Source of the DNA: Planctomycetota bacterium
GTDB taxonomy: Bacteria; Planctomycetota; Planctomycetia; Pirellulales; Pirellulaceae
Assembly (NCBI GenBank): GCA_963205385.1
Contig: CAUJKE010000150.1
Span: 1-36,906, forward strand
DNA: 36,906 nucleotides
Direction of reading: 5' to 3'
Position numbers and translations under genes: made by a program. Shown here piece by piece: positions 4,643 to 23,275 of the stretch. Each line of letters starts with the position of its first letter. Within the stretch, counting starts at the first letter, position 1. The notes under the pieces are model-generated. The model worked only from the letters and a program-made list of their open reading frames with translations, made no database searches and was not told the DNA's origin.

Positions 4643-7600
4643 CTACGAGCGTGATCGCGAAGAGATCGCGCGCCGCGTCGCAGGCGAGGGGAGTAAATCG
4701 CCGGTGCGCGGCCAACGCCAACGCCAGGCGCTCGCAGCGAAGAGCAGCGCGATCACTAGTCCGAAGCCTGCCGGTTCAAGCAACAGCCACCACGCCAGCC
4801 CAAGCCCCACCCCGATCACGTGCGGCGCGCGCTCGACGAACTCTCGCATCGCCTGCATTTGCAACAGCCACAAGAGGCCCGCGGCCAAGAGCAGCAGCGC
4901 CAACACCGCGACGGCGCGGGCCATCCAGGGGCTGCTACGCTGGAGGCGGGTCTCGACTTCGATAGCGCTGGCGGAGCCGGGTAGCATCGCACGAATGGTC
5001 CCTGGGGAAGTCTGTTCCCACTGACGCTGCACAGCGACGAACGAGCGAGGGGGCGCGCGATTGGCAAATACTTTCTCCGCCAAACCAGTGGCGCCCCATT
5101 GTTCTTCGACGGCTTCCAACTCGCGGTGCAACGTTTGCGATTCGGCTGACAACGTGGAGGACGGCTCATCTCCAAGTTGATCCCGCGCGACGAACGCCAG
5201 CGCCGGGCGAGCATTGCGCGCCCAGTTCGAGAGCCACGCCGTCGCTTCCGGACCGCCGGACTCCGCCATCAGCCCGGCCGCGCGCTCAAGCATCGTGGTG
5301 GCGTTCTTCAGAGCGAATGTCGCGTGGCGAACGTCGTCGATGGTTTGGTTGGGGTCCGCAAGCGACAACTGCCGGTGGGGATTGGAGGAGGAAATGGTCC
5401 ACAAGGTCCGCTCGACCGGAAGTTGCGCAAGCGCCGGCGCCGCCAATGGCAACGGTTCATTCCCGCTCCAGACGAACCCTCCGCCGCTGGTGAACAGGAC
5501 TTCCAAACGCTGCGGCAGTTGTTCGTGGCGGAGGAGTATCTGCCATCGCCGCGCGTTTCGCTTTTGCACGATGGCCGGCGATTCATCGACCAATGCCCGA
5601 ATGAATTCCAACGACGGGGGCATTTCGAGCGTGACGTTCGCCAGCCCGGCCGGTTCGAGATCAAAACTCGCCGCGCCTACCAATTGGCCGCCGGCGGCAA
5701 CATGCAAGTGAATGTCGGCCAGGCGTACTTGCGGCACGCCTGCAATCCGTTCGATGCGCCGAATCGTGGCTTGAAAGCGAGGTCCGCCGGCCAAGAACAA
5801 CTGCCCATCCTCCGGCAAGTCAGCGAATAGTTCGGCGGGTCGATCAATCGCGTGCAAGCCAGGCGTCTCCCAGGCGATCGGTTGATCGTCGAGTCGCGCA
5901 GGGAGCCAAACGTAGGACTCTTGGTGCGCAGCATCGAGGATTCGAATATCGGGCGCTTGCCAACGCTCCGCAGGCGCGGTGGTGAGCGGCGCGGTGAGTT
6001 GGAGCCGAAAGTCGCCTGTCTGTGGTTCATCGAGATGGACCACGAGGTGTGGTCGAGATTGTCCTGGGATGGCGACAACTTCGACGCGCCCCGGCAAGTT
6101 CATGCGAAACGAAGTGGGGATGTCCGCCGGAGCATCGAAACGGAGACGCTCCACCTCGCCTGAGAGCACTTTGCAGCGCACATCGAGATCGAGTTGCCAG
6201 TCGCCGTTGTTGCGCGTGAGACTGGTCAATTGCTGGGCTTCGAGTTCCGTGTGATTGGGGCGGACGTCGAGGGAAAGTTCGCGTGCCTTCGTCGTTGCGT
6301 TCAGCGGCCGCAGCAAGGCGACGCGGCGGAAACCGTCCGCCGGCGCAGGTTGATCGTCCTGTGGCGGCAACGCTTCGAGCCCCTCCAGGTCGAGCAGCTT
6401 CACGCGAACGGAGGGCCCGCGCTCGATAAACACCGCCAACGGAGGCTCAGCCCCCTGTAGTTCTAGCAGCGACAATTTCCAAGGCGAACGCGCCGGCCAG
6501 TCCGCCTTTGCTTTCACGATCAGTCGATAACTGGCGCTCGTCCCGGCAGGCAAGCTTAGCATGAGTGCATCCTTCGCGGCGCGGGTGATCCGCACCTCGC
6601 GCGAGGCGCCTTCTGCGGTAATCGAGGCCTCCACAGGCTCAAAACCTGCAGGCAACAAGACACGATGTTGAAACAGTGTGCCGGACGTCACGTTGACGAG
6701 CGCTTCGAGTTCGGCTCGCATTTCGCCGGCCGTGACGGCATACGTCAGCGCTTGGCGGGCGGTGAATTGCGGGGCTTGTGGTTCGACATGGACGATCAGC
6801 CGAGAGTCGCCTGACGAGAGCGCAATGGCCTGCTGCGGCAGTTCTGCACTTCCCCACGCCGTGGCGAACTCGTTGGTTGCGAGCGGTTTGTGGGGCGCTG
6901 CCTGCGGAATTGCCGCTTGCAAAGGCGGCGCGGCGGTAATGGCGAGCCAGCGTCGCGTCGTCCGGTCCGCGACAGCATCAACGCGCGGCAAAATGAGATC
7001 GCCGATGCCAGAGGCGCCGCTCAGCGTGAAACTTGTTTGCAGCGATAGTTCCTGGGGGTAAGGCTCCTTTAGTATCAACTGAATGGCCTGCACGTCGCCA
7101 TCGCGCACCGCCTGCTCCGCAACGGGCGCATCGGGCGAAAGAGGCAACAGCCGCAGTCGCGGGTCAGTAACGAGGCGAATCTCGCGGAGCGGTTGTCCGC
7201 TGCTCTTGAATTTCCAATGCACATCGAGCACGACCGACCCTGGCCGGATTCGCCACCACATTAGCTGCGCTGTTTCTACATCGCTACTGACGCTCGCATT
7301 GGCCTGGTTCACCGGCCATTGAATGGCGAGCCGCGTCGTCGGGCCAAGCTCCAGTTGCAATTCGCCGGGCGCTGCCTGGGTTGACTGGCCAACGGCGCGC
7401 GGAGTTTGGATGCCCAGGGCCTCCGCTGGATAACGCAATAGCAGTCGCGAGCGGGCGATGGTGGGAATCCGAAAGTCGATCTCCTCCCGCGAGGCAATGG
7501 TGCGCGTCGTGGGCTGTAACTCGAGCTCCAGGCGATAGCGTCCCGGTTGTTCTACATTAAACGCAAAGCCCTCGCCCCCTTCGAGCCATTTGACATCGAT

Positions 7601-10600
7601 TGGCTCGCCATCGAGGCTGACGCGATCATCAACGGGATGGACGTTTTCGCGGCCCAGAGCAATGGTGACGTTGGCCTTGGGTTGAAAAACTTCCAAATCG
7701 TAGGAAGTCACGATATTGCCCATTTCCAGTTGCTCACCGACGCTTTCCCACTGCAATTGCGCGCGGTAAGTGGCCGCATAGAGCATCCAGCCCCGCGGGA
7801 TCGCCTTGGCGGCCGCGGCGTCGCGATACAACGCTTCGTAGAACGACTTGGGCAAATAGACATACTTGTTGGCAGGCTGCTGGTCTTCGTTCACCGGAAA
7901 CAGGACACGATACGCACTGTCGCGCGGCGTCGCATTGGCTGGCGCGGCGGGAGACTGGGCCTGGCTCCATCCGGCAACGAGCAGTCCGAGCGCTGCGAGC
8001 AAGACGGCTGTCATCGCTGGCGACTTGGGCGCGCCCGACGTCGACGAACTGACGGAAGAAGCATTCCGCGCGAGCGGTTCGAAACGCGCCGCGCCGCGGC
8101 GCGGAGGCAGCAGCAACATGACCGCAGCCGAGGCCAACATCGCCAGAAAGAATGCCGTCGCACAGGGAACGAGCGGCGCTGGGAGGACTAGCGCCGTGAT
8201 TCCCGAGAGAACCGTCAGGAACAAGAGCGTCTTCCAGCGGCGCTGGCGCCACCACAGCGCTGCGGCGCAAGCGACGAGGAAGAGGCCCCAGGCCAGGGCT
8301 TGAATGTCGCGCGGACGATAGACCACAAACGGCAGCGTGCTGGCGCCAGTCGTCGGCACGTCGTATGCTTGCCAACCGACGGCGAGCAACTCCCGCGACG
8401 AGGTGACGCTGTCCGCTGGCCAAGGTGAATGCGCAGGCTGCGGTTCGGCCAGCCATTGGGCGACGGTGATGAAGGACGACTGCTCAAGGGGCGCCGAGGA
8501 AATGAGCGGCGACGCGCCGGTGTGCACGGAAACATCCAGCCGATGAGCCGCGCTGGCCGGCGGGGCATTGTAACTTGTGAGCAAGACGAAATCGTCGTGA
8601 AAGACGAACGCCACGCCAGCATCGGCCACGGCCTGGTGGAGGCGGAGCGCGGGAGGCTCGCCGCCAGCAGCGAGCGCGTCCGTACCGGTGAGCACGGTCT
8701 GGGCATCGATTCCCACCGCGGCGAGGCGCGGCGCATCGACGCGCAGCGGCAACAAGCCGTGGGCCTCATCCGTTGCCAGCAAAGCATAGTTTTGCAGCCA
8801 GCGACCCCACGTCGGCGCCGGCGAGCTTTCGTGTGTGGTCGTGAGGAGTTGGTCCAGCGCGTTCCAACACCGGTCAGCGCGCGCTTGGGCCGCGGAGTTC
8901 GCAGGGGCTGCAGGGAACGGCAGTTCCCAGGCTGCACGCGAAAACAGCGACGGCGGCGGCAGTTCGGAGGGGCGCGCGAGGAACCCAAACAACCGTTCCC
9001 GAACGCCGAGCGCCGCCGTCCAGCCCATACTGTTCGGTGCTTGCGAGTCCGCCAGCGCCATCTCTGGGGGCAACCACAGTTGCGCTTGTGAGGCCAAGAC
9101 CGGGAATTCGACGGTCGGCCAGGCGAGTGTCGCGCGGCCGTACAGCGTGGGCAACTCCACAGGCAGCTCATATTCGAGCGCCACGTTGACGTACCGCGTG
9201 TTCATGGGAAGCGGCAGGAGTAGTTCATGCGTGGTGCTCGCCGTCAGCGCGATGCGCTGATCGTTCACGAGCGCGAATCTCGGCCGCGCCTCGGCGGGAA
9301 GCTGGACGTGCAAATTCGGCGCCCCGTGGTTCTCGATTTGATAGCTTGCGGAGCAGACCGCCGTGCCGCTGCTTTCCGCGCGGCAAATCAGGTTCTGCTT
9401 CCACGCCCACAGCGCTCGACGCCCCTCGTTGGCCGCGGCGAGTCCCACCGTGAGCGTTTGATCTTGCCCCGGCGTATAGCGAAAGGTCGCCCGGTTGCTT
9501 TCACTCGTCGCTTGCTCAGCCGGTAATAACGGCTTAAGCGCTTTCGGCTCCACCACTAGCGCCGCGCCGCCTGCGGAGTCGACGCTGACCTCGCCGGTTT
9601 GCGATTCCGCTTCGGGGAAAGACGCCAAGGCGACGGACGTGGTTGGCGAGTTCGTCGGCAGCGCGACTTCTCGCTGAGCCGAGAGTTCGAACGGCGCGTC
9701 GTACGAGTGCGGCAGCGTGAGTTCCCAGGTTTCTCCGTCTGTCAGTGCGAGTTGGCGTTGCTCCGCGGAATCCAGTTGACGGGCAAGGAGTTCCTGTTCG
9801 TCCAACTTTCGCCACGCCAGTTGCGACTGCTGGGCAGGCGAGAAATGAACGAGCACGCGCGCGACGGGCGTGTTTTCGGGCGAGATGACCAGGCGATGCG
9901 TCTGGGTGACATGCTCGGGACCGACGATCGCCGTGGTAAACGCCGCCGCCGCGTAGCGGGGACTCTCGGGTCTGAGGCCCATGGCGAATTGCGGGCCGGC
10001 GGAAGCCTCCGCAAACACCACGCGGCTCCCCGTCGTTTCCAAACGCGACCGCTCGAGTGGAGACAGCGCCGTGACGTCGCTCCGCTGCAGTCCCGCGTCA
10101 CCGGTGAGCAACAACTTCTGCCGCGCGTCGGCATGCACGCTGACGAGTCGTTGATCGACCGCCGCATCCTGCCAGAACAGGGGCTGATATTGACGGGCAC
10201 GTAGCGTCGCTTTCTGGCTGGCGACGGGTCGATGCGCCCTGATTTGCACGCGCGCCCCGCGCTCGGCGTTGACGGATTGCGCGAATCGCAAGGTCAAGTT
10301 TTGATTGCTTTTCGGCTGCGGCGCGAAGCTCCAGTCCTGCAACAGTTCAGGCGGACTCGTTTCGACCGCGTCAATAATCCACGGCGCCGGCACATTCGCC
10401 TGCATTTCAAAGCACTGCCCGCGACTGGCCTTCACGTCGGTAATGAGCCGCGCGGCGAGGTTCGCTTCCTCCCACTTCAAGGTCAAGCCTTCGCGCACTT
10501 GGAGCGCAGGCGTGGCTTCCGCCGCGACGATCTCCAGGCGAGCGTCCGCGCGGTAGCACTGAAACTGGTAGGTCTCGCCGCCACGCGGCGCTGGCCCAAG

Positions 10601-11800
10601 CCTCGTCTGCTGACACGCCTGGGGCTGCAAATCGCGCAGTTCAATGAGCGGCGAGACCGCGAGCGTGAGCATCCCTTCCTGCCAGAGGGCATCGCGACAA
10701 GTCAGGGTGGGCAGCGACCATTGGCCTCCCCACTTCGCACTGGCCCAACCTTGAATGTGCAACGTGCGGCCGACGCCTTGGAGCGGTTCCTCAAACTCGA
10801 TGGCCAGGCTTTGCTGGTGGGATTCGTCACTGGGAGATATCGCCCATTCGAGTTCCTTTTCACCCAGCTTGACCGACGTAATCTGTATGTCGCCAGCGAC
10901 ATCGAACGTCAGTTGCTGGAGCGCCTCGTGAAAGATGTCCAGATCGACGGCGGCATCCACTTGCAACCCCTGAGGCTGCAAATCGTAGCTCACGGCCTGA
11001 CGCGAGAGGACATAACGACGGGTCTGGCGGAGCAGTTCATCGGCGACCAGGCTCAGCGTCGTGCGCGTGTCGCCGCCAAGTTCGACCAACCAACGTTGAC
11101 GTTTGTTATCCGCCGGCGCGCCTTCGTCCGCCGCCGGTGCAGGCATACGGGCGACGATGCCTCGCGTGACCAGCGGCGTCGTTCCCAGCGGCAAGTCCAA
11201 TTCCAGGCGTGCTGCGGGGCACGCCGGCGTGCGCAAGTCAAACACCAACGCCCCCGCTGGATCGCGGGCGCCGCGCAACGACCAGTCGAACAGTAACCGC
11301 GAAGTTCGCGGCAGGGCTGCGCCTGCTTCCGCGGGTTCTACAATCACGCTCAGTTGGCCTTCAGCGTTGCTCCCCAAGCGGGCCGGCGCACGGCGCGCGT
11401 CATCCCACTGCGGCGTCGCGATGGCCAGCGAACAGGGCTCCAGCCGGACCGTCGCGGACTCGGCGGCATTGCATTGAAGCTCAATTTGCGCTTGGCCAAT
11501 GAGGAGTCCCTGATCCAGTCGCGCGACGTACGAGGCGCTGGTCGTTCGCGCGCTCGCGCCGCCGGGACCGCTGGGTGCGGCGTTGATCGTATCGAGTAAC
11601 TGTTGAAACTCCTCGCGCTCGAGGATCATGTAGCCGGTGCCCATCTTGGCGAGTTGATCGACCGGCACATAGACGCGGCGATACTCGAGCGCCACCGGCG
11701 CGACCGTTGGCGCTGCCGGTTGCGCGGGGACGTGGCCGCTGGTCAATAGCAGCGCCAGTAAGCCCCAGGCGGCGAGGGCCAGTCGCCAGGCGTGACTCAT
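4643..11800 (-). CDS. Giant exported membrane-anchored protein, two fused units
   Basis: A 2385-residue protein I cannot assign to a named family. It begins with a signal peptide (MSHAWRLALAAWGLLALLL, then PAQPA). A short alpha-helical motif follows (VYVPVDQLAKM, then EREEFQQLLD), and then about 1100 residues that look like strings of beta-sandwich domains. Residues about 1163-1237 hold several membrane helices. At residue 1263 (base 8014) the chain starts again: a hydrophobic segment MTAVLLAALGLLVAGWSQAQ resembles a second signal peptide, then YVYLPKSFYEALYRD repeats the opening motif, and another ~1000 beta-rich residues follow. Membrane helices at about residues 2289-2360 end the chain. 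The protein therefore reads as two full-length units fused head to tail. The start ATG overlaps the stop of the upstream gene (ATGA), indicating translational coupling. The ectodomains should face the periplasm. No catalytic motif was recognised. Confidence 0.85.
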   Translation of the reverse strand: MSHAWRLALAAWGLLALLLTSGHVPAQPAAPTVAPVALEYRRVYVPVDQLAKMGTGYMILEREEFQQLLDTINAAPSGPGGASARTTSASYVARLDQGLLIGQAQIELQCNAAESATVRLEPCSLAIATPQWDDARRAPARLGSNAEGQLSVIVEPAEAGAALPRTSRLLFDWSLRGARDPAGALVFDLRTPACPAARLELDLPLGTTPLVTRGIVARMPAPAADEGAPADNKRQRWLVELGGDTRTTLSLVADELLRQTRRYVLSRQAVSYDLQPQGLQVDAAVDLDIFHEALQQLTFDVAGDIQITSVKLGEKELEWAISPSDESHQQSLAIEFEEPLQGVGRTLHIQGWASAKWGGQWSLPTLTCRDALWQEGMLTLAVSPLIELRDLQPQACQQTRLGPAPRGGETYQFQCYRADARLEIVAAEATPALQVREGLTLKWEEANLAARLITDVKASRGQCFEMQANVPAPWIIDAVETSPPELLQDWSFAPQPKSNQNLTLRFAQSVNAERGARVQIRAHRPVASQKATLRARQYQPLFWQDAAVDQRLVSVHADARQKLLLTGDAGLQRSDVTALSPLERSRLETTGSRVVFAEASAGPQFAMGLRPESPRYAAAAFTTAIVGPEHVTQTHRLVISPENTPVARVLVHFSPAQQSQLAWRKLDEQELLARQLDSAEQRQLALTDGETWELTLPHSYDAPFELSAQREVALPTNSPTTSVALASFPEAESQTGEVSVDSAGGAALVVEPKALKPLLPAEQATSESNRATFRYTPGQDQTLTVGLAAANEGRRALWAWKQNLICRAESSGTAVCSASYQIENHGAPNLHVQLPAEARPRFALVNDQRIALTASTTHELLLPLPMNTRYVNVALEYELPVELPTLYGRATLAWPTVEFPVLASQAQLWLPPEMALADSQAPNSMGWTAALGVRERLFGFLARPSELPPPSLFSRAAWELPFPAAPANSAAQARADRCWNALDQLLTTTHESSPAPTWGRWLQNYALLATDEAHGLLPLRVDAPRLAAVGIDAQTVLTGTDALAAGGEPPALRLHQAVADAGVAFVFHDDFVLLTSYNAPPASAAHRLDVSVHTGASPLISSAPLEQSSFITVAQWLAEPQPAHSPWPADSVTSSRELLAVGWQAYDVPTTGASTLPFVVYRPRDIQALAWGLFLVACAAALWWRQRRWKTLLFLTVLSGITALVLPAPLVPCATAFFLAMLASAAVMLLLPPRRGAARFEPLARNASSVSSSTSGAPKSPAMTAVLLAALGLLVAGWSQAQSPAAPANATPRDSAYRVLFPVNEDQQPANKYVYLPKSFYEALYRDAAAAKAIPRGWMLYAATYRAQLQWESVGEQLEMGNIVTSYDLEVFQPKANVTIALGRENVHPVDDRVSLDGEPIDVKWLEGGEGFAFNVEQPGRYRLELELQPTTRTIASREEIDFRIPTIARSRLLLRYPAEALGIQTPRAVGQSTQAAPGELQLELGPTTRLAIQWPVNQANASVSSDVETAQLMWWRIRPGSVVLDVHWKFKSSGQPLREIRLVTDPRLRLLPLSPDAPVAEQAVRDGDVQAIQLILKEPYPQELSLQTSFTLSGASGIGDLILPRVDAVADRTTRRWLAITAAPPLQAAIPQAAPHKPLATNEFATAWGSAELPQQAIALSSGDSRLIVHVEPQAPQFTARQALTYAVTAGEMRAELEALVNVTSGTLFQHRVLLPAGFEPVEASITAEGASREVRITRAAKDALMLSLPAGTSASYRLIVKAKADWPARSPWKLSLLELQGAEPPLAVFIERGPSVRVKLLDLEGLEALPPQDDQPAPADGFRRVALLRPLNATTKARELSLDVRPNHTELEAQQLTSLTRNNGDWQLDLDVRCKVLSGEVERLRFDAPADIPTSFRMNLPGRVEVVAIPGQSRPHLVVHLDEPQTGDFRLQLTAPLTTAPAERWQAPDIRILDAAHQESYVWLPARLDDQPIAWETPGLHAIDRPAELFADLPEDGQLFLAGGPRFQATIRRIERIAGVPQVRLADIHLHVAAGGQLVGAASFDLEPAGLANVTLEMPPSLEFIRALVDESPAIVQKRNARRWQILLRHEQLPQRLEVLFTSGGGFVWSGNEPLPLAAPALAQLPVERTLWTISSSNPHRQLSLADPNQTIDDVRHATFALKNATTMLERAAGLMAESGGPEATAWLSNWARNARPALAFVARDQLGDEPSSTLSAESQTLHRELEAVEEQWGATGLAEKVFANRAPPRSFVAVQRQWEQTSPGTIRAMLPGSASAIEVETRLQRSSPWMARAVAVLALLLLAAGLLWLLQMQAMREFVERAPHVIGVGLGLAWWLLLEPAGFGLVIALLFAASAWRWRWPRTGDLLPSPATRRAISSRSRS

Positions 11801-14800
11801 GATTCCGACTCCGCCGCCTGGCCAGCCATCGCCATGGGGCCCGCGGCCGTCGTGGCGTGCGAACCGTATTCAGGCCGCGGTTGCGAATCGCGCACGCGGC
11901 TGTCAATGCCAGAGGGGGCGGGAGTGCGCACGACGACTCCGGCAATTTCGCGCGGCCCCAAAATCGTTTTGAGCAGCCTGGCAAGCACGAGGCAAGCCAG
12001 TCCAACCACGGCGGCTTGCGCTATGATGGCGGCGAGCTCAGGGCTGGCCAGCGCAAACGCCACCAGGAACACGCCTGCAAATAGCAAGATCGCCGGGTGT
12101 CGCAACACCGGGAAATACAAGAGCGCCAGTCCGGCGACTAGCGCCATGCCAGAGCAAACGAGCAGCACGGTGCGACGAGCTTGGGTCCGCAGGGTCAATT
12201 GCTGGAGCGAACCGAAGCTGCTGAACAGATAAGCATTCGTGGCCTCTGGCAGTTCAGACTGATGCGAGGCCCCGATCCAACGCTCCAGTTCGTCCTGTGA
12301 GAGCGCACTCACCCGTCCGAAATACGCTCCGCGCCAGCGCCAATTCATATCCGCGGTCAAACGCGGCGGCGCGACGAGTAGATGCTCTTTATCCGGCAAA
12401 ATAAGTTGCCAATACGCGCGCCGCGCCTCGCTTCCGTTAATCACCTGCGGCGCCATGAGCTGCATTTCGCCGAGCGGGGGACGTCCCGCGGAAAAGTCGT
12501 ACCAGAGCTCAATCACCTCAGAAACCGGCTCCGGCCCGAGCGCCAGCGGCAACGACAGCGTCAACACGTCATCGCCATCCAGCGTCGCTTCGCTCACCCG
12601 CCGTCCATCGATCGCGACCGACAGATCCTGTTCGCGCGCTCCGGGAGGGAGTTTGATTTGGAGACGTTGGTTCGCGGTGGTAATCCGAAAGACGGCCCGG
12701 TCTTGCCGCTTGTCCGTGGACATCCAGGTTTGAATCCACATCTGCTCGACCGCCACCGCGCCGGTGCTTCCTGCGCGTTCGTGTTGAACTTGGAGCGCCA
12801 GTTGGTCTGCGGGGCCGGTATGTGTCCACTCACTCGCGCCGCGGCCGACGCGCTCGCTGCCAGCAGTCTTAATCCAACTCGTGTCCTGCGTCACGAGACG
12901 CAGCGCTGGATCATGCTCGACCGAAGCGGTCACGCTTGCGCCCAGGCGAGTTCCATCCAGCAAGGGAGACACCAACGGGAGCGACCACTGCCGCGCGCGG
13001 TCCTCCGCCGGCGGAGGCGCCAGCACCGCATAGCGGACGGTGAGTTCGAGCGGCCCAATGTGATCGCGCAATAAATCCACGCGCACCGCCAAGCGCGCAT
13101 CGTCGGGTTTGTCCGCGGCAGGCAACATCGAGACGGGCAGCAATTCGCCATCGAGCAGAACTTGAATGCGGCCGGCATCCCATAGCGACCGCGGAACCTC
13201 CAGATCGAGATGGCGCAGCGCCTCGAACGCAATCTGGTAATCGAGACGCTGGTCAACTTCCGCTTGCCGCTCGCCGAGCAGCACATTCACCTGCGACGAA
13301 ACCGTGAGCATCCGCTCGCGCACGCTCGCCGTGGCCACGAACCTGGCGGCGCCGCCTACCAGCTCGCGATAAACCAGCGGCGCTTGCTGCCGTTTCGGAA
13401 AGGGGAGCGTATCGGGGAGCGTGTCGGGAGTTAGCCCTTGCTGCTCGCTCGCGCGGGCGATGAGTTCGATATTGTCGGCCGGAACGATGAAAATGCTCCC
13501 CGGAGTAAGCATGGCTCCCACGGGACGCGGCAGGGTGACGTCGAGGCCGGCAATCGGCGGCGCCAGGTCGCGATGGGCTTGGACGCGCAGTTCGAATTCA
13601 CTCGCCGAGGATAGCGCGCTCGCCGCAATGGGAATCGCGAGCGGAGTCACTTTTGCGGTTAACAGCGACTCGCTCTGCACCAGATTTTCGGGACCGACAC
13701 GGTCGATCGTCCAACCGCTGAAGTCGTATTCCAAGGTGTAAATCTTTGCGCCGCGAACTTTGAACTTCAGCGTCGCATCGAGCCGCAACTGTTGAGCATC
13801 GACATACACGACATACGTTGGCTCGACGGAAACGCGCGTCTTCTTGGGAACCGTTTGAACCTTCAGCGAAAAAGGCTGCGCATCGAATTCAAACCTCGCC
13901 AGACTCTTGGCGGCGCTCGCCGGATCGGTCAAGCTGGGATCGTCCACTCGGCGGACATTCGCCCCCTCGGTCCACACGGCCGATTGCTCACCTTCGACGA
14001 CCAGGTCGATCGTGCCTGCTTGCTTGACCGCGTCGAGCACCTCGAAACCGCCGACTTCCAGCGGTTGCTCGGCGGCGATCGCGTCCCGCAGGTACTCCGC
14101 CGCGAGCAACGCCTCGATCGGACCGTTGGTCTTGGCGGCGAGTCGCACTTCCACCAATTGCACCGGCTGCTGCGTGACGGGATCGACCTCCGGCTCGAGC
14201 GCCGTGAACTGCAGGTTGGGTTGATCGAGCGAGACGAGCCGCATTCCCGGCGGCAACCGCACGACGAACGTTTCCAACGGTCCGCGGAGATTCTTGAGTT
14301 TGATCTTCGCCTCGCAGACGACCCGCCGTTTTCCCTCCAGGCGCACCGTGAGCGCCGTCGTCGCTTCGAGGAGTTGGCGCGTCAACGTCGGCGTTGACGA
14401 ACCGGCTCGCCAGGTGATTTGAAAATCGCTGGCGGGGCGATGCATTTCGATCAAGGAACCGCTGCCATCGGCCGTCACGGTGAGGACTTCTTCATTGCCG
14501 CGCCGTGAACAGGTAGCGATAGCGCGCGGCGCTGGGACGGCCAGGGTCAACGTGCCGCTGACCGCACTGGGCGCGGTCAGCGAGATTCGCGATTCCGCGC
14601 CGAGTTCTTGCACTTTCGCCAGGAACTTGCAACTCAGCGTGTGCTTACTCCCGGCCGGCGCGCGCATCCAGCAAACGTAGCCCTCCCCCGCAGCATCGAA
14701 TTCCAGAAACAACTCTCCTTCGCCTGTGTGCTGGGGAGGTTCGCGCAAGACGGAGTTGCCAAACCGGAGCGGGATTCGAACCCAAGCGTCTCCGGGGGCG

Positions 14801-15162
14801 TTGATCTCGATCGCGATCGTGACATCGAGCGCCGCGCTCGTCCCCTCAACTCGCCCGGTGATGTTCGTGCTTCCCAACGCAAAGGCGGGGACTTCGGAAT
14901 CGAGGCCTTGCGAGAGCTTGTAAAGACGCTGGAAATCCTCGAGCGTCATGTCCGGGACTTCGATGAGATCGCCATCTTTGTTCTTGAGATAGAACACTTT
15001 AGGCAAAGCCTCGCGGACGCCGGAAATTTTTGGCTTCACCTCGCTCGGCGGCGGCGCCTGGTTCGCTTCGCCTTGAGAGCTGGCGGTGCGCGGACACAGC
15101 GTGACGGCGGCTAACAGCGCAAGCGTGAACAACGACAGGCGCGAGCCGTTCGGCAGCGGCAT
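11797..15162 (-). CDS. Large exported beta-rich protein with C-terminal membrane helices
   Basis: A 1121-residue protein of unknown function, built like each half of the downstream giant. From the ATG at 15162 it has a clear signal peptide (RLSLFTLALLAAVTLCPRTASSQ). A VFYLKNKDGDLIEVPDMTLE / DFQRLYKL opening motif follows, then a long beta-strand-rich ectodomain, and three or four membrane helices at about residues 993-1070 (starting VLLVCSGMALVAGLALLYF). The tail is short and polar. A GTG at 15243 in the same frame would add 27 residues ahead of the signal peptide; I prefer 15162 because the signal then sits at the N-terminus. The stop overlaps the next gene's start by four bases, so the two are almost certainly one operon with linked roles, probably a complex in the inner membrane and periplasm. 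No enzyme motif was seen. Confidence 0.83.
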   Translation of the reverse strand: MPLPNGSRLSLFTLALLAAVTLCPRTASSQGEANQAPPPSEVKPKISGVREALPKVFYLKNKDGDLIEVPDMTLEDFQRLYKLSQGLDSEVPAFALGSTNITGRVEGTSAALDVTIAIEINAPGDAWVRIPLRFGNSVLREPPQHTGEGELFLEFDAAGEGYVCWMRAPAGSKHTLSCKFLAKVQELGAESRISLTAPSAVSGTLTLAVPAPRAIATCSRRGNEEVLTVTADGSGSLIEMHRPASDFQITWRAGSSTPTLTRQLLEATTALTVRLEGKRRVVCEAKIKLKNLRGPLETFVVRLPPGMRLVSLDQPNLQFTALEPEVDPVTQQPVQLVEVRLAAKTNGPIEALLAAEYLRDAIAAEQPLEVGGFEVLDAVKQAGTIDLVVEGEQSAVWTEGANVRRVDDPSLTDPASAAKSLARFEFDAQPFSLKVQTVPKKTRVSVEPTYVVYVDAQQLRLDATLKFKVRGAKIYTLEYDFSGWTIDRVGPENLVQSESLLTAKVTPLAIPIAASALSSASEFELRVQAHRDLAPPIAGLDVTLPRPVGAMLTPGSIFIVPADNIELIARASEQQGLTPDTLPDTLPFPKRQQAPLVYRELVGGAARFVATASVRERMLTVSSQVNVLLGERQAEVDQRLDYQIAFEALRHLDLEVPRSLWDAGRIQVLLDGELLPVSMLPAADKPDDARLAVRVDLLRDHIGPLELTVRYAVLAPPPAEDRARQWSLPLVSPLLDGTRLGASVTASVEHDPALRLVTQDTSWIKTAGSERVGRGASEWTHTGPADQLALQVQHERAGSTGAVAVEQMWIQTWMSTDKRQDRAVFRITTANQRLQIKLPPGAREQDLSVAIDGRRVSEATLDGDDVLTLSLPLALGPEPVSEVIELWYDFSAGRPPLGEMQLMAPQVINGSEARRAYWQLILPDKEHLLVAPPRLTADMNWRWRGAYFGRVSALSQDELERWIGASHQSELPEATNAYLFSSFGSLQQLTLRTQARRTVLLVCSGMALVAGLALLYFPVLRHPAILLFAGVFLVAFALASPELAAIIAQAAVVGLACLVLARLLKTILGPREIAGVVVRTPAPSGIDSRVRDSQPRPEYGSHATTAAGPMAMAGQAAESES

Positions 15163-15393: not shown

Positions 15394-16218
15394 TTATTTC
15401 TCTTGCGCTGGGTCCATTTTGGCCAGATCCGTCCCAGTTTTCAACGTTTTCAGGAGTTGCGCTTGCAACTTGGGGGTGGCCGTGGCGACGATTTTGGGCT
15501 CCGCCAGGTCGAGCGGCGTCCCCTCCAGCGAAGTAATGACTCCGCCGGCTTCCAGCGCGATGAGCATTCCTGCGGCAATATCCCACCGTTGGACGCTCGT
15601 GGCCCAATAGCCATCGAATCGTCCGCAACCGACATAACAGAGATTGAGCGCCGCGGAGCCCATGCGGCGTAACGCCTGGCAACGGTGGAGGACTTCGATG
15701 AACCGGGTGACTTCCGCGGAACCGCGGGGAACGTTGGCTGCGAAACTCGCCGCGATCATCGCCGCTTCCAGGCTTTCGCAGTCACTGGTTTGCAGCTTTT
15801 CGCCGTTGAGCGTGGCCCCTGCGCCGCGCGCGGCGGCGAAGCATTCGTCGGCAGTGGGATCGTAAACAACCCCGCAGACGATCTCGCCTTGATGTTCCAA
15901 AGCGATGGAAACGGAGTAGTAAGGCAGGCCATGCACGTAATTCGTGGTGCCGTCGAGCGGATCCACCACCCAGCGAAACGGCGACGAACTCGCAGCGCCG
16001 GCGGACTTCGCGGCACTGAGATCTTCCTCACCTAAGAGGTCGTGATCCGGGTGCGCGGCGCGGAGCACGGCGAAAATTCTTTCCTGAGCGGCAATATCCG
16101 CTTCCGTCACCAGGTCGTGTCTCCCTTTTTCACGCCAGCGAATTCGACCTGCATACGCGCGCAGCACGTCACCCGCCTGGCGCGCGGCATCCTCACACAG
16201 CGGTAAAAACTCAACCAT
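15394..16218 (-). CDS. Inositol monophosphatase family protein
   Basis: A 274-residue member of the Mg-dependent, Li-sensitive phosphatase superfamily (IMPase/SuhB/CysQ type), of normal length. All metal-site signatures are present: DLVTEAD (residues 35-41), GEE at 63-65, the DPLDGTTN motif with Asp86 and Asp89, and WDIAAG with Asp213. These residues bind the metals and activate water to hydrolyse a sugar or inositol phosphate in the cytoplasm. The ATG at 16218 starts the conserved helix. The C-terminus carries about 25 extra polar residues. The gene is divergent from the structured RNA and gene at 16354-17264. It could act on inositol phosphate, fructose-1,6-bisphosphate or 3'-phosphoadenosine phosphate; sequence alone does not decide. 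Confidence 0.9.
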   Translation of the reverse strand: MVEFLPLCEDAARQAGDVLRAYAGRIRWREKGRHDLVTEADIAAQERIFAVLRAAHPDHDLLGEEDLSAAKSAGAASSSPFRWVVDPLDGTTNYVHGLPYYSVSIALEHQGEIVCGVVYDPTADECFAAARGAGATLNGEKLQTSDCESLEAAMIAASFAANVPRGSAEVTRFIEVLHRCQALRRMGSAALNLCYVGCGRFDGYWATSVQRWDIAAGMLIALEAGGVITSLEGTPLDLAEPKIVATATPKLQAQLLKTLKTGTDLAKMDPAQEK

Positions 16219-17273: not shown

Positions 17274-19064
17274 TCAACCGAGTTCTTTGTGGTAGTAGCG
17301 GCTGAGCGCGCGAATGCGATACACCTGGTACGCGACCATCACTCCCAGCGACGTGATGCCTGCCGCATAATACACCGCCAGGTACAGCGGCGAGCGCAGC
17401 GTCTCAAACGCATACGCCAAGACGCCAAAACCAATCAGGCAACTAGCCAGCGTGAAGAACACTAGCCGCACGCGAAAGAACATCCCGGCCGCAACAATCA
17501 ACAGCGGATAGCCGATCAGTAGCGATCCCAGCGGCGGCCCCGTCAGGAACAGCGCGAGCGTCAGCAGGCACACGTCGGTCGCCGCCCACAGAAAGCGGGC
17601 GGACTCGGCCAATTGCCGCGGCGCGAGGAGCCACTGGGGGAAACTCGACATGCCAACTGGGGCGTCGGCATCCAGCGCCAGCCGGGGGCGATCGAGCATC
17701 CATTGATAGCCGGTGATCGCTCCAGCCCAGACCAGAAAAATCAGATTCATGTTGATCAAGTAGCCCGTGGAGCCGCGGAGCACCACGTGCATAATCTGCA
17801 AAATAATCGCCATCACGACGAGCACGACCAGGTGCGATACGAGCGTCGGTTGCCGGCGCCACCAACGCCGCAGTTGCGGCCATAGTCCGGTGCGGTGCGC
17901 CTCGACCGGTTCCCCCATGAGCCAGCGCTCGAGGTCGTCGGCGAGTGCTTTGGCGGTGGGATAGCGATTGTCGGGCTTCTTCTCCAGGCAGCGCATGATG
18001 ATCCACTCCAACTCGCGCGGCGTTTCGCGGTTGAGTTGGCGCGGCAGCGTGGCTTCCGCTTCCAGCACGGCCAACAGCGTATCGAAGCGTGTCTCGGCTT
18101 GAAACGGCGGGCGGCCGGTCAAACAGGCATACAAAATCGAGCCCAGGCTATAGATATCCGCCGCCTCGTTCACTTCCTTCACGCGGCCGGCGGCTTGCTC
18201 CGGCGCCATATAGCTAGGTGTGCCTACGATGTCGCCGGTCCGCTCGTCGGTTCCCTGTCCATCGCGCATCGCCAGGCCGAAGTCGGCGATGCGGGGCTCC
18301 CCTTGACTGTCCATCAAGATGTTCGCCGGTTTGAGATCGCGATGCACGACGCCGCGCTCGTGAGCATATTCCACCGCGAGGGCGAGCTTGCGAACGATCT
18401 CCGCGGCCATTTCCGCCCGCAGCGGGTGCGCCTTGAGCACCTCGTCGAGCGTCGGCCCCTCGACGTAACCCATCGTGTAATAGTGGCGGCCGTCGCGGCC
18501 ATCCACGTCGTAGATGGGGACGATATGCGGGTGATCGAGCACCGCGGCGGCGGCGGCTTCCGCATAAAAGCGGCGCACTTCTTGGGCATTCGCCAATTGC
18601 CCGGTCAAAATCATCTTCAGCGCGACGGTGCGCCCCAGACTTTTCTGCCGCGCCCGATAGACGATGCCCATACCGCCGCGGCCAATTTCCTCGAGCAGGT
18701 CGAAGTCGCCAAAATCGGCAATGGCAGGCAAATCGAGCGAAGCGGAAGGCGAGGAACGCGCGCCGCCGCTCGGCGAACCACTTTCCGGCGAACCACTTTC
18801 CGGCGAACCGCTTTCCGGCGAACGACCGGCCCGCAAGTCGATGGTCGCGTCGCACGCCTCGTTCGTGCCGTCGCCCCCTTCTATCTCCGCTTGGGACGCG
18901 CCCAAGGCTTCTTCCAGACGCATGCACAACTCAGGGTGCTGCTCGAGGATATCCTGAAGCACGGCGGTAAGATCCGCGTCGGCGTCCTTGAGCCACGGCT
19001 GAAACAATTGCCGCCACGACGCTTCCGCCGAGGTACTCGCGCGATCGTGTTGAAAATCGTTCAT
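17274..19064 (-). CDS. Transmembrane Ser/Thr protein kinase (PknB/Hanks type)
   Basis: A 596-residue Hanks-type kinase. The N-terminus (1-115) is acidic and variable and holds a Ser/Pro/Gly repeat. The kinase domain begins at about residue 117, with the Gly loop GRGGMGIVY, the ATP-binding Lys in VALKMI, the catalytic loop HRDLKPANI near residue 238, the Mg-binding DFGLA near 260, and GTPSYMAPEQ as activation and P+1 loop. All catalytic residues are present, so it should phosphorylate Ser/Thr. Residues from about 405 onward form five or six membrane helices rather than the PASTA or WD ectodomain seen in many kinases, so the kinase domain faces the cytoplasm on a polytopic anchor. ATG 19064 is preceded by AGG at a 9-base spacing. 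It lies downstream of the pilus-like cluster but behind a terminator, so it is probably its own unit. Confidence 0.93.
   Translation of the reverse strand: MNDFQHDRASTSAEASWRQLFQPWLKDADADLTAVLQDILEQHPELCMRLEEALGASQAEIEGGDGTNEACDATIDLRAGRSPESGSPESGSPESGSPSGGARSSPSASLDLPAIADFGDFDLLEEIGRGGMGIVYRARQKSLGRTVALKMILTGQLANAQEVRRFYAEAAAAAVLDHPHIVPIYDVDGRDGRHYYTMGYVEGPTLDEVLKAHPLRAEMAAEIVRKLALAVEYAHERGVVHRDLKPANILMDSQGEPRIADFGLAMRDGQGTDERTGDIVGTPSYMAPEQAAGRVKEVNEAADIYSLGSILYACLTGRPPFQAETRFDTLLAVLEAEATLPRQLNRETPRELEWIIMRCLEKKPDNRYPTAKALADDLERWLMGEPVEAHRTGLWPQLRRWWRRQPTLVSHLVVLVVMAIILQIMHVVLRGSTGYLINMNLIFLVWAGAITGYQWMLDRPRLALDADAPVGMSSFPQWLLAPRQLAESARFLWAATDVCLLTLALFLTGPPLGSLLIGYPLLIVAAGMFFRVRLVFFTLASCLIGFGVLAYAFETLRSPLYLAVYYAAGITSLGVMVAYQVYRIRALSRYYHKELG
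18771..18830. repeat. 15-bp tandem repeat inside the kinase gene
   Basis: The unit CGGCGAACCACTTTC is repeated perfectly at 18771-18785 and 18786-18800, with one change at 18801-18815 and a decayed fourth copy to 18830. On the coding strand it gives ESGSP repeats in the linker between the N-terminus and the kinase domain. The unit keeps frame, so copy-number change would lengthen or shorten the linker without breaking the gene. Confidence 0.85.
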
Positions 19065-19107
19065 GGAGAATACCTGCGCCTAACCGCAATACTCCCCTTA
19101 TTGTGGC

Positions 19108-19156
19108 ATAATTGCGGCTCGGGTGTAAAGCATTTACGAGTGGAGGCCGCAATTAT
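19108..19156. promoter_or_regulatory. Nested inverted repeat upstream of the kinase
   Basis: ATAATTGCGGC (19108-19118) and GCCGCAATTAT (19146-19156) are perfect 11-base complements. Between them lies a smaller dyad GTAAA-GCA-TTTAC (19125-19137). A partial extra copy, CCGCAAT, is at 19084-19090. The element is about 45 bases upstream of the kinase start and may be an operator overlapping its promoter. A weak minus-strand TTTACA box with CACAAT 18 bases on overlaps it. There is no T-run, so a terminator is unlikely. Confidence 0.5.
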
Positions 19157-19214
19157 CCGGGCCCCCACCGCATTCCAAAGTCTCGGCGCCTGCGATGGCG
19201 ACTTGATGCAACAA

Positions 19215-19244
19215 CAAACCCAGCGCTTCGCAGCGCTGGGTTTG
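19215..19244 (-). terminator. Terminator of the pilus-like cluster
   Basis: CAAACCCAGCGC and GCGCTGGGTTTG form a perfect 12-base stem with a six-base loop, 31 bases past the last gene of the cluster. On the minus strand the stem runs into TTTGTTGTTG, a T-rich though interrupted tail. It separates the cluster from the kinase gene. Confidence 0.65.
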
Positions 19245-19274
19245 GGAGAGATTGCGGATTCGGACGACTGGCGG

Positions 19275-21404
19275 CTACTCGCGCCCGCGACGGCCACTGC
19301 CGCCGGGGATGAGTAAATCTCGATCGCGACTGCCGCCACGTCCCGGCTCGATGGTGGGACCGTAACCGCTGTCGTCGGCAATGACCACCGGCGCCATCTT
19401 GATGTCGCCGTAGCGCTGCCAATCTTCCATGTCTTGCCCTTCGCGCTGGATGAGCAGATTTCCCTTAGCGTCGATGAGCGCGACTGCACCGGGCGCGTCG
19501 AGCGCTCGCTTGCCGCCGGTGAGCCTATCTCCGCCGCGCACGTCCACCACGAAGGCGCCTGTGCGGAATTGATAGTCCTTGAGCTTGAAGAACACCAGCT
19601 TGGTGGGATGCAGCGTTTCGCCGTCAGCGGCGAAGTTCATCACGGCGCCCCGTTCCACTTCGTGCTCCGCCGCGACATGCGCGGCGTAGAGATCGTTCCA
19701 GTCCACGACCAAAACATTCGCCTTGGGCTCGCCGACCGCGACGCGGATGTTGGTGCCTGGAATCGGCGGGCCTTCACGCGCCGGAGTTACCTTGCCGGCG
19801 GCCAGGATGAGCGGCTCGGGAATCGTGACGATGTCACTCACTTCACTCCAGTCGGTATCGCGCCAGAAAATGCGGCGTTTGTTCTTGCGCTCTTCCTGTT
19901 CCAATTCGCGCAAGCGTTGTTCGACATCGGGCATGAGCGAGGTCGGCGGCGGATCGTTCGTATTCGTATCGCCGCTCAACGTTCCACCGGTCGATTGCGC
20001 CAACGGGGGATGGTTGGGGTCGATCAGCGTCAACTTCGCGCGATACCGGTACTGATGCCCGCGCTGAACATCAAAATCGATGATCCGCAGCAGTTGGTAG
20101 TCAATTTCACGTTCGGTGTAACCGCCACTGGTCGAGCTGGGATATCCGCCGCGTCCGGACTCACGGCCGCCGCCGTAAGGCGAAGGGCCGCCGCGCGGAG
20201 TGGGACCGCCACGGACAGCGGGCCCACCACTGGGCGTGGGGCCGCCACGCCCCGGTTCGACGCCCGACGGGCCACCAGGCGTGCCGAACTCCGGCGGGAA
20301 GTTGGGGCCATCCATGCCGGGAATGCCGGGCCCAAAGTCTGGAATGTCGGGACCGACATTGGTCTGCTGTTCCTCGATGAGGTCGGCGGCAAACGCAATG
20401 TCCGAATGGCCTGCAAGTTTCTTGATATCGGCCAACAGCACCGGTGGGACGGGGAGCGTCAGACCCGCTAGCACGGCGGCGGGGTCGATCAATTCCTCGG
20501 CGGCCATTTCCCAAACCGCGCCCCGTTGATAGGGCAACGCGCGTAACGCGCCGGCATTGAGGTTCACCCACTTGAGATCCGCCGGCGCGGCGCTGGGATT
20601 ATCCGTCACATCCGCGCGCTCAATGTAGAACCAAAAATAATTGGGCCGATCGCGCTCCTCGTTGAAGTTCTGGCTATTGCCGGCCAGAGCCTCAAGATAC
20701 TCGCGCGTTTGCTTCTTGACCGGAATCAACATTTTGAACGCGACGATATTCCGCGACAAAGGCGTCCCCTGCCCGATGGATCGTCCCCCGGTCCACTGCT
20801 CCCGTTCGCTCTCCGTCAGTTCGCGGGGCTGATTGCGCATCGTCATGGATGGCGTGGGAATCAGCTCCTCTTCGTCCCGTCCACGACGCCTACTCTTGCG
20901 ATCGTCCACGGGAGCGACCGGGGGAGGCGCGTTGAGCTCTTCCTGGTATTCGAGATATTTTTCATCGATGGGAGCGAGCGTGTTTTCCTCCGGCTGGGTG
21001 GAGATCGCCGCGACCATCGCCACGACTTCCGGCTTCAGCGGCGGATACAAATTCGGATCCCGCCGCTTGCTCCGCGAGGGGAGAATCGGCGGGCTCATGT
21101 GGGCGAGCATCCACGTCTCGGGGCGGGTGTTGATGACAATGGGGTTGTCGATCGGCGGTGGGGAGAGCTCCTTTTGGACCTCCGCCCACGTATTGGTGTT
21201 CATGTGGGTCTTGGCATTGCTCACCTGCGAGGCCAAAGTTTCAGGCGTTTTGCTGGCGGGGAAGGTTTCCACCCGCGAGCCCATAAACGCAAACACCAAG
21301 ACCAGGAACAAAGCCAGACCGAGCACGAACTTTTCCACATGCTCGATGAGAAACCCCTTAAGGCCATTGGGACCGAAATTGAAACGTGATTTTTTAGGTT
21401 TCAT
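19275..21404 (-). CDS. Single-pass membrane protein in the PilP position of a pilus-like cluster
   Basis: A 709-residue protein with a short basic cytoplasmic N-terminus (MKPKKSRFNFG), one membrane helix at residues 20-41 (KFVLGLALFLVLVFAFMG) and a long periplasmic part. The middle (about 355-426) is Gly/Pro/Arg-rich, with several GRGG and PTPRGG units, and separates two folded-looking parts. The C-terminal part, from about residue 430, has beta strands (DYQLLRIIDFDVQRGHQYRY and ANVLVVDWNDLYAAHV). ATG 21404 follows GGAAAACT. It is the third gene after pilM-N and the PilO-like gene, where PilP sits in classical pilMNOP operons, but I see no PilP lipobox or clear PilP domain. The PilP role is therefore positional inference only. 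Its motif EPGRGG is shared with the upstream neighbour. Confidence 0.72.
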   Translation of the reverse strand: MKPKKSRFNFGPNGLKGFLIEHVEKFVLGLALFLVLVFAFMGSRVETFPASKTPETLASQVSNAKTHMNTNTWAEVQKELSPPPIDNPIVINTRPETWMLAHMSPPILPSRSKRRDPNLYPPLKPEVVAMVAAISTQPEENTLAPIDEKYLEYQEELNAPPPVAPVDDRKSRRRGRDEEELIPTPSMTMRNQPRELTESEREQWTGGRSIGQGTPLSRNIVAFKMLIPVKKQTREYLEALAGNSQNFNEERDRPNYFWFYIERADVTDNPSAAPADLKWVNLNAGALRALPYQRGAVWEMAAEELIDPAAVLAGLTLPVPPVLLADIKKLAGHSDIAFAADLIEEQQTNVGPDIPDFGPGIPGMDGPNFPPEFGTPGGPSGVEPGRGGPTPSGGPAVRGGPTPRGGPSPYGGGRESGRGGYPSSTSGGYTEREIDYQLLRIIDFDVQRGHQYRYRAKLTLIDPNHPPLAQSTGGTLSGDTNTNDPPPTSLMPDVEQRLRELEQEERKNKRRIFWRDTDWSEVSDIVTIPEPLILAAGKVTPAREGPPIPGTNIRVAVGEPKANVLVVDWNDLYAAHVAAEHEVERGAVMNFAADGETLHPTKLVFFKLKDYQFRTGAFVVDVRGGDRLTGGKRALDAPGAVALIDAKGNLLIQREGQDMEDWQRYGDIKMAPVVIADDSGYGPTIEPGRGGSRDRDLLIPGGSGRRGRE

Positions 21405-21524
21405 AGTTTTCCATGCTCCGAGAGCAGCGCGGCGATTTTTTCGGCCATGGCCACGCGGACCTGCGTCGTCCCTACAGTGTATCGCCGCGAAAATATCGCC
21501 GGCGAACGATTTAATCGAATAGTG

Positions 21525-23255
21525 TTACGGGTTAGGCGCCGGCGCTGGGGCCGGCGTGTTTTGCGGATCTTGCGGCGGCGCCGGCGCGACATCCATCGGT
21601 GCTGGCGCGGGCGCAGGCACGGGCGCTGCCGGGTCGACCGGCATTGGCTCAACAGGCATCGGCTCCGCCGGCATGGGTTCCGCCGGGGTCGGTGGGACGG
21701 CCATCGGGTCCGGTGTCACCGCAGGCTCGGTCGTTTCCGGCACGGGGACTTCAGTCGGCGGCGACTCGCCTGCTTCGGTTCCCAGCGCGGACACCAGGCC
21801 TTCGTTCACGGGATTATAAATGTACACGATTCCATACAGTTCCAGGTCCACGTCGTGTGGTGAAAGGACTTCAGTGCCGTCCCCCATGCCACCGACTTCA
21901 CGGCCTCCAATTCCGCCGCCGCCGAACCCACCGCCGCCGCGTTCCATGGCAAAGCCGCCGCCGCCGCGGCCTGGCTCACGCCCGCCGCTCATGGCCAGCG
22001 GATTGGCATAACCGCCCCCACTGCCGCCGCTCATTCCGCCCCCGTCAAACACCGGCCGATTCATCCGCAACTGGCGGATCTCGACGATTAAATTAGAGTT
22101 GCCGCACTCCGCGAGCAGGCGGTTGAGGTAACGCTGATCAACGACCAGATGCATTCGGACCGGCATCCGCTTGGCAACCGCCAGGAACGCTTCGTCCGAC
22201 TTCGTGGAAGTAAACGCCAACCGCAAACGATCCGGCGGAATCGGTTGGTAATTCACGTCCACATAGCGACCTTCGGCCGGATCGCGCGAAACCGTCGCTC
22301 TCGGATCGCCTGGCATCAACTGTCCGCCGCGGAGGGGATCTTCCGGCATGCTTCCCGGTTGCGGCCCCGAAGGCGCGCCGTCAGGGCCGACTTCCGGCAC
22401 GCTTAGGCGGAGCACCTGGCCGGAAAAGCCGACTGCGTCCGCCCCCATCTTGACGTACTTGATTTCCTTCACCACCGCGTTGTGCGGGGCGTCCGCGTCT
22501 TGATTGGTTTTAGCGATGATGTTAATCAACGTTTCCAGCACCCACAAATCCTCCTGCGCGTAGAGGATTTGCAAGGTTGAGGGGCGTCCGCCCACCTCGC
22601 CGCGCCAATCGAAACGTGTATCTTGCAAATACTTCTGATTATCCGCGTGCCATTCCACAATCCGCTTCTCGCCGGTGGCCAATAGCGTTGGTCGATCCGC
22701 CACGGAGCCGGTAGCGCCGCTAGCGGCGCCTTCCTCGGCCGGATGCCACACCGCGCCGATGATCCGCGCCAAGCGAGGCAGTTCCGTCGTCTTCACGAAG
22801 TTGACGTACTGCGACTTGAAGTTGTCCTTCAACTTGTCCAGGCTCTTGTTCTCTGGCTCGTAGGGAACCGTGGTTTCGATGGGACGTAGCGGACGAACCT
22901 GCTCCACGAACTCTTCCGTCAGCCCGCGGTAGGTAGCCGTTTCGACCGGCCACTGCAGGTTAACTCCCTGCTCGACATATTGCTTTTCCCACAGTTTTTT
23001 CAGATTGGTCTTGTAGCGACTGATGATCGCGTCGATCTGCTGCAGATGATTGGCGTTGGCGTGATTGACGGTGCTCTGGATCGTACTGACCGTCGATTCG
23101 CCGGAGGTGATCTTACCGGCGTTGGTCTTGAACTGCTGTGTCAGCCCCGCGCTGGCGACATACCAACTTCCGAGCGTGAGCACAGTTACCAGGCCGCATA
23201 GAATCCAAAAATGGTACTTCGCGGCGAGCCGGAGATAATGCTTGACTTGATCCAT
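21525..23255 (-). CDS. PilO-like pilus/secretion inner-membrane protein
   Basis: A 576-residue protein with one N-terminal membrane helix (FWILCGLVTVLTLGSWYVA, residues about 16-38). A coiled-coil segment follows (about 45-95), the PilO/GspM topology of a bitopic inner-membrane protein that pairs with PilN. The periplasmic part contains WVLETLINIIAKTN and RMPVRMHLVVDQRYLNRLL, ferredoxin-like strand-helix elements of the kind PilO uses. Residues about 402-458 are almost pure Gly with Arg, and the last 75 residues are Pro/Ala-rich with PMPAEPMPVEPMP-type repeats. Both are much longer than in a classical PilO of about 200 residues. It starts 20 bases after the pilM-N stop, with AGGA upstream. 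The PilO call rests on topology and gene order. Confidence 0.72.
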   Translation of the reverse strand: MDQVKHYLRLAAKYHFWILCGLVTVLTLGSWYVASAGLTQQFKTNAGKITSGESTVSTIQSTVNHANANHLQQIDAIISRYKTNLKKLWEKQYVEQGVNLQWPVETATYRGLTEEFVEQVRPLRPIETTVPYEPENKSLDKLKDNFKSQYVNFVKTTELPRLARIIGAVWHPAEEGAASGATGSVADRPTLLATGEKRIVEWHADNQKYLQDTRFDWRGEVGGRPSTLQILYAQEDLWVLETLINIIAKTNQDADAPHNAVVKEIKYVKMGADAVGFSGQVLRLSVPEVGPDGAPSGPQPGSMPEDPLRGGQLMPGDPRATVSRDPAEGRYVDVNYQPIPPDRLRLAFTSTKSDEAFLAVAKRMPVRMHLVVDQRYLNRLLAECGNSNLIVEIRQLRMNRPVFDGGGMSGGSGGGYANPLAMSGGREPGRGGGGFAMERGGGGFGGGGIGGREVGGMGDGTEVLSPHDVDLELYGIVYIYNPVNEGLVSALGTEAGESPPTEVPVPETTEPAVTPDPMAVPPTPAEPMPAEPMPVEPMPVDPAAPVPAPAPAPMDVAPAPPQDPQNTPAPAPAPNP

Positions 23256-23275
23256 GACGACGATTCCTCAAGGGC

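Follow-up and report, generated by a model that had tools for sequence, protein, structure and literature searches.

The window, i.e., the whole 36,906-nt stretch of planctomycete DNA that was analysed, carries two giant genes on the minus strand, at 15162-11797 (1121 aa) and at 11800-4643 (2385 aa), which overlap by ATGA at 11800-11797. A previous reading of the sequence without database searches (the sequence-only reading) had described two such overlapping genes of 1121 and 2385 residues, which the ORFs bear out, and had left the strand unstated. The first gene encodes one unit (C) and the second encodes two (A and B). GC3 is 0.73 in both giant genes, the same as in the neighbouring genes, and the source genome has only one copy of the locus at this similarity level. 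The features are as follows (all on the minus strand; a slash marks a putative cleavage site):

11797-15162, minus strand: gene 1, unit C, an exported single-unit protein of 1121 aa (ORF and translation; homologues)
15076-15162, minus strand: N-terminal signal peptide of unit C, residues about 1-29, ...RTASS/QGE (hydrophobic N-terminus; putative cleavage site)
12178-15003, minus strand: beta region of unit C, residues about 54-995, ~5 predicted tandem M1-N/ribophorin-like domains (AlphaFold2, Foldseek/VIA, internal repeats)
11959-12177, minus strand: three membrane helices of unit C, residues about 996-1068 (hydropathy; helices in the model)
4643-11800, minus strand: gene 2, fused units A and B, 2385 aa (ORF and translation; full-length fused homologues in many genomes)
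11723-11800, minus strand: N-terminal signal peptide of unit A, residues about 1-26, ...GHVPA/Q (sequence; putative cleavage site)
9050-11686, minus strand: beta region of unit A, residues about 39-917 (AlphaFold2 pLDDT mostly 70-90; VIA match to Ost1)
8321-9049, minus strand: poorly predicted segment of unit A ahead of its helices, residues about 918-1160 (pLDDT mostly <50)
8099-8308, minus strand: three membrane helices of unit A, residues about 1165-1234 (hydropathy)
8015-8098, minus strand: basic Ser/Pro linker, predicted cytoplasmic, residues 1235-1262 (sequence; charge in 44 chains)
7958-8014, minus strand: internal signal-peptide-like segment, residues 1263-1281, ending SQA/Q (sequence and motif; predicted signal peptidase I site)
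5375-7912, minus strand: beta region of unit B, residues about 1297-2142 (about 800 columns aligned with A and C by hhalign)
4721-4930, minus strand: membrane helices of unit B, likely three, residues about 2291-2360 (hydropathy and sequence inspection)
15394-16218, minus strand: inositol-monophosphatase-family gene upstream of unit C (Pfam PF00459, E 4.7e-68)

The three units share a common layout, that is, a signal-like helix, a short P-containing motif, ~850-940 beta-rich residues and three membrane helices, with ~240 additional residues in unit A ahead of its helices. Hence, the layout given in the sequence-only reading holds for all three units, but what it gives as one short motif is better described as a pair of P-boxes (in distant members, e.g., VYVPYDEL...VFLPYxEFxxLW).

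The homology of the units was computed directly, by building per-unit family alignments from relatives in 60 genomes and comparing them by hhalign, the pairwise profile comparison that had been suggested previously. The alignments spanned 801 columns for A-B (E 3e-31), 837 columns for A-C (E 8e-34) and 808 columns for B-C (E 1e-31), compared with a best E of 7e-3 (A) and 0.016 (B) against a reversed-C profile, and with E 4e-4 within 65 columns for C against its own reversal. At the level of sequence profiles, the homology of the three units, which extends over 800+ residues, is thus near certain. Self-comparison of every unit gave a further, off-diagonal match shifted by about 175-180 residues (E 1e-6 to 4e-13), and each unit is therefore a chain of related domains, about five per unit based on the offsets and the structural models. 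No match was found in Pfam, NCBIfam, PADLOC or PDB sequences beyond stray membrane-helix or chance matches (TgpA_N, DUF5693 and designed Ig domains, which we dismissed as such), and these proteins were found described nowhere in the papers searched. That is, the protein family is unmatched in the curated libraries searched, while its domain fold and internal-signal-peptide strategy have precedents.

Of 60 relatives, 55 had a unit C homologue and 45 had the A-B chain, adjoining C. The window protein as query matched all 12 same-class (family f21) genomes sampled plus 11 more distant genomes, and with a distant member as query, matches came from 44 of the 140 good planctomycete genomes; these counts are lower bounds because single queries overlook divergent copies. 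The order C then A-B was kept in most of the distant loci inspected at full length, and C plus fused A-B recurs in Pirellulales, other Planctomycetia and several further planctomycete families as two ancient versions. Searching for the units in other planctomycetes, as had been proposed, thus recovers the same gene order across much of the phylum. A narrower related-locus search returned 16 loci, all from planctomycete records except one labelled Candidatus Nealsonbacteria (JABMRB010001437.1); the latter encodes unit A as well as a unit C with 33% identity, and is probably a misbinned planctomycete contig. The junction in a same-order genome (G047, locus L034) is the same as that of L092, from a Pirellulales bacterium, which makes Pirellulales the probable order of the window.

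A tree of 57 units, whose long end branches leave the deep order without resolution, shows two deep versions. The window falls in version I, together with other Pirellulales and one family f21 locus, and version II comprises the distant families and a second locus of f21 genomes. A, B and C each form one supported cluster in version I; B and C form supported clusters in version II, where A is not resolved as one. Since the units group largely by type within each deep version, the triplication predates the lineages sampled, and both this clustering and the homology of the units support the ancestral duplication that had been proposed from the window alone. Both versions were seen together in f21 genomes (L160 of G083 and L164 of G210, compared with L146-L155), including G295, where they lie at C1:1351670 onward and C1:7433338-7443351. 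Among the version II A-B chains L158, L159, L160, L161 and L164, several unit A's have both an additional helix pair and a long disordered Gly/Pro/charged insert ahead of the junction helices.

Directly upstream of unit C, an inositol-monophosphatase-family gene was present in 16 of 20 relatives and in 8 same-class loci, and may be a housekeeping neighbour. Elsewhere in the window, sequence reading alone suggests a PilM-like protein (23276-25591, minus strand), two proteins that each have a single membrane helix at the N-terminus (21525-23255 and 19275-21404, both minus strand), a serine/threonine kinase (17274-19064, minus strand) and a large secretin-like protein (32746-36906, minus strand). 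Together, 17274-25591 and 32746-36906 look like a planctomycete type IV pilus/secretion-like gene group; a functional link of the giant units to the pilM-like genes or the secretin was dropped, as these genes are not conserved beside the locus in relatives.

AlphaFold2 models of unit C (mean pLDDT 74, pTM 0.37) and of residues 1-1200 of unit A (pLDDT 65, pTM 0.32) were built on shallow alignments (17 and 7 sequences, respectively), and their domains are good while the mutual orientation of the domains is uncertain; the likeness of unit B to A and C comes from the profile alignments. Foldseek returned ribophorin I/Ost1 as the best PDB match for both models (E about 3e-9). With VIA-align, A 261-431 superposed on yeast Ost1 228-444 (Z 15.6, rmsd 2.6, 165 residues) and C 617-996 on human ribophorin I 29-430 (Z 15.0, 327 residues, rmsd 12.2), while C 616-997 against Ost1 28-443 and human ribophorin I 29-431 gave Z 14.4-15.0, a likeness at the fold level only, as the domains are oriented differently (rmsd about 12 A). 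The N-terminal domain of M1 aminopeptidases was tied with Ost1 on A (LTA4H 14-207 on A 262-425, Z 14.8, rmsd 3.1) and reached Z 12.7 on C 617-795. A match to 6fpy, an inter-alpha-inhibitor heavy chain with a VIT-vWA architecture, was weaker (E 2e-4) than that to ribophorin I and came with no Pfam VIT match; integrin and complement matches were set aside (TM-score about 0.1, rmsd >20 A). What can safely be said is that the models present the units as arrays of the M1-N-type beta domain.

The resemblance to ribophorin I extends beyond the single domain in the model of unit C, where the last two domains, both ribophorin-like, lead straight into the membrane helices, the same order of two tandem M1-N-like lumenal domains and a membrane helix as in ribophorin I/Ost1. 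Ribophorin I holds substrates during export as part of the oligosaccharyltransferase, and by analogy the units might be its bacterial counterpart, doing the same in partnership with a glycosyltransferase or with the Sec translocon. We consider this quite improbable in spite of the top matches of both models, since the aminopeptidase domains score almost as high per domain and the inter-domain rmsd is 12 A. The units also differ in having about five domains rather than two and three helices rather than the one membrane helix of Ost1. No sequence signal accompanies the fold: ribophorin I (PF04597) was over the cut-off in 0 of 20 genomes and had no Pfam match among the proteins, and a profile of the C-terminal two domains found no PDB chain at E<=10. 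The tandem-plus-helix likeness is thus a fold-level resemblance between models and structures without sequence support. STT3 (PF02516) was also over the cut-off in 0 of the 20 genomes, with archaeal controls positive, and therefore the units are not oligosaccharyltransferase subunits. A survey of the non-catalytic subunits of this enzyme found no promising prokaryotic relatives (PMC4973528).

The M1 aminopeptidases themselves (LTA4 hydrolase, APN, ERAP1) share the single N-terminal domain fold with the units, but the units have no catalytic domain and form arrays of the domain. HExxH and GxMEN are absent from both proteins, and a metallopeptidase reading was rejected for want of HExxH; most of the positions that each unit conserves hold W, P, G or L, i.e., structural residues. 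Based on this absence of catalytic motifs, the units would rather probably act as a scaffold and not as an enzyme.

A different function, namely an envelope sensing or adhesion apparatus in which the giant arms bind a ligand and signal through partners, is suggested by a YfbK-type vWA gene that abuts or overlaps the start of the locus, directly upstream, in five distant lineages (L189, L190, L192, L193 and L194). In at least one of these (L192) an anti-sigma match stands in front of the vWA domain, and other vWA proteins have a similar N-terminal region as judged by eye. We regard this function as unlikely because the vWA gene is absent beside the locus in the window and its close relatives, where the inositol-monophosphatase-family gene lies upstream instead. 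VIT-vWA proteins offer a parallel in that vWA genes adjoin the locus in some lineages, but the units themselves have no vWA domain.

At the junction between A and B, the second half of gene 2 opens with MTAVLLAALGLLVAGWSQA/Q (residue 1263, base 8014), directly after the three helices of unit A and a basic Ser/Pro linker, the restart point given in the sequence-only reading. Fused A-B ORFs of about 2000-2980 residues occur in dozens of genomes, a recurrence that rules out an assembly artefact, and their junctions have 2 to 4 or more hydrophobic helices (mostly three), then a basic Ser/Pro-rich linker and then a signal-peptide-like segment. This internal hydrophobic segment was present in essentially all fused chains examined, and the counter-case named in the sequence-only reading, homologues that lack it, did not arise. 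It ends SQA/Q in the window and SVA/Q, VEA/Q, TWA/Q, VMA/Q or IAA/Q in other chains. A strict signal-peptidase motif near the end of the hydrophobic core, [AVSTGCIL]xA[QED], was found in 29 of 44 internal segments and is missing from the other 15. The controls, which were the remaining membrane helices of these chains around the junction or the C-terminus, had it in 6 of 195 cases, and the N-terminal signals in 12 of 31; the looser [..]xA form was found in 40/44 vs. 111/195. This count omits chains in which the scan misplaced the core, and one duplicate. The associated tests (Fisher p 1e-20, Wilcoxon p 1e-8) ignore shared ancestry and are descriptive, and the former overstates the case because homologous sequences are not independent. 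Net charge around the segment averages +2.48 before and -1.61 after, and is higher before than after in 41 of 44 chains.

A and B form one ORF in most lineages, and a clean fission was seen in one lineage only (L179 of G120), where three separate genes encode C (1129 aa), A (1262 aa) and B (1148 aa). Unit B has its own ATG and signal peptide there, with the start MNRVIVRVCVLAACLAVVLRSAVRA/EES, and these separable halves uphold the proposed fusion of two copies. In G070, the A and B frames are separated inside the junction helices by a single in-frame TAG (L180:9278-9280), which may reflect real fission, readthrough or a sequencing error, and we rejected this genome as a second split because one in-frame stop is no clean case. 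The small-genome lineages G158 and G071 have two single-unit genes in place of the usual set.

We infer the following route for these proteins. Unit A would be exported by Sec via its N-terminal signal, its three helices would bring the chain back to the cytoplasm, with the basic linker remaining inside, and the internal signal peptide would launch a second export that carries unit B across. Signal peptidase I, a family encoded in the source genome, would most likely cut after SQA (residue 1281) and release B, which ends in three helices of its own; unit C would be made alone from the upstream gene, coupled through the ATGA overlap. The outcome would be three membrane-anchored periplasmic subunits of about 1000-1250 residues, with A and B at 1:1, each consisting of a Sec signal, a short P-box hairpin, ~5 beta domains in tandem, with the M1-aminopeptidase-N/ribophorin-I fold, and three helices at the C-terminus. 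We hold this overall account, of an exported A-B polyprotein split by signal peptidase I and three giant membrane-anchored periplasmic scaffold proteins, with moderate confidence. Its parts differ in strength: the periplasmic orientation is very probable, and the surface location that was also offered earlier now appears less likely than a periplasmic one on the cytoplasmic membrane; cleavage at the junction, predicted from its sequence features, is probable; and for a physical complex of A, B and C, in which the three subunits would assemble into a non-enzymatic envelope scaffold, we see about even chances.

Alternatively, the internal segment might be an uncleaved signal anchor, in which case A and B would remain joined in a single polytopic chain of about 2400 residues that extends two arms into the periplasm. 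The fusion is retained in most lineages and in both ancient versions, and could matter as one chain, and the hydrophobic core of the segment could act as a membrane helix. We find this rather unlikely, given that the strict signal-peptidase motif is much commoner at the end of this core than in the remaining helices of these chains, and that the equivalent segment in G120 is a true N-terminal signal peptide. The suggestion that the internal segment lets the chain cross the membrane again is thus kept, with the charge asymmetry as expected, and refined from a re-crossing helix to a likely cleavable signal peptide. Processing of A-B by signal peptidase also has a precedent in FbcH of Bradyrhizobium, a cytochrome b/c1 membrane polyprotein with an internal signal sequence, from which signal peptidase produces two subunits of one complex. 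As in FbcH, the internal signal peptide of A-B follows membrane helices in the correct topology, the motif is conserved at the junction and the halves are separable; the proteins are unrelated, however, and the halves of FbcH differ whereas A and B are paralogous and their cleavage is predicted.

It is important to note that the cell plan of planctomycetes is unusual in its large, invaginated periplasm, a compartment for which, to our knowledge, few structural proteins have been identified. A ~10-kb gene pair with its order kept across many planctomycete lineages and no match among the curated families searched is a strong candidate envelope component. If the cut is real, A-B would be a deeply conserved bacterial polyprotein that re-uses signal peptidase, a strategy that we otherwise know best from viruses. 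Further, it is tempting to consider, albeit only tentatively, that the locus encodes an envelope machine of ancient origin and phylum-wide occurrence in planctomycetes, made up of three paralogues with ribophorin-I-like arrays, two of them from a signal-peptidase-cleaved polyprotein. The ribophorin-like tandem fold bears on the origin of the eukaryotic oligosaccharyltransferase subunit, and, if this broader model is true, these would be bacterial proteins in which the lumenal domains are arranged in tandem as in ribophorin I, a subunit so far reported from eukaryotes only.
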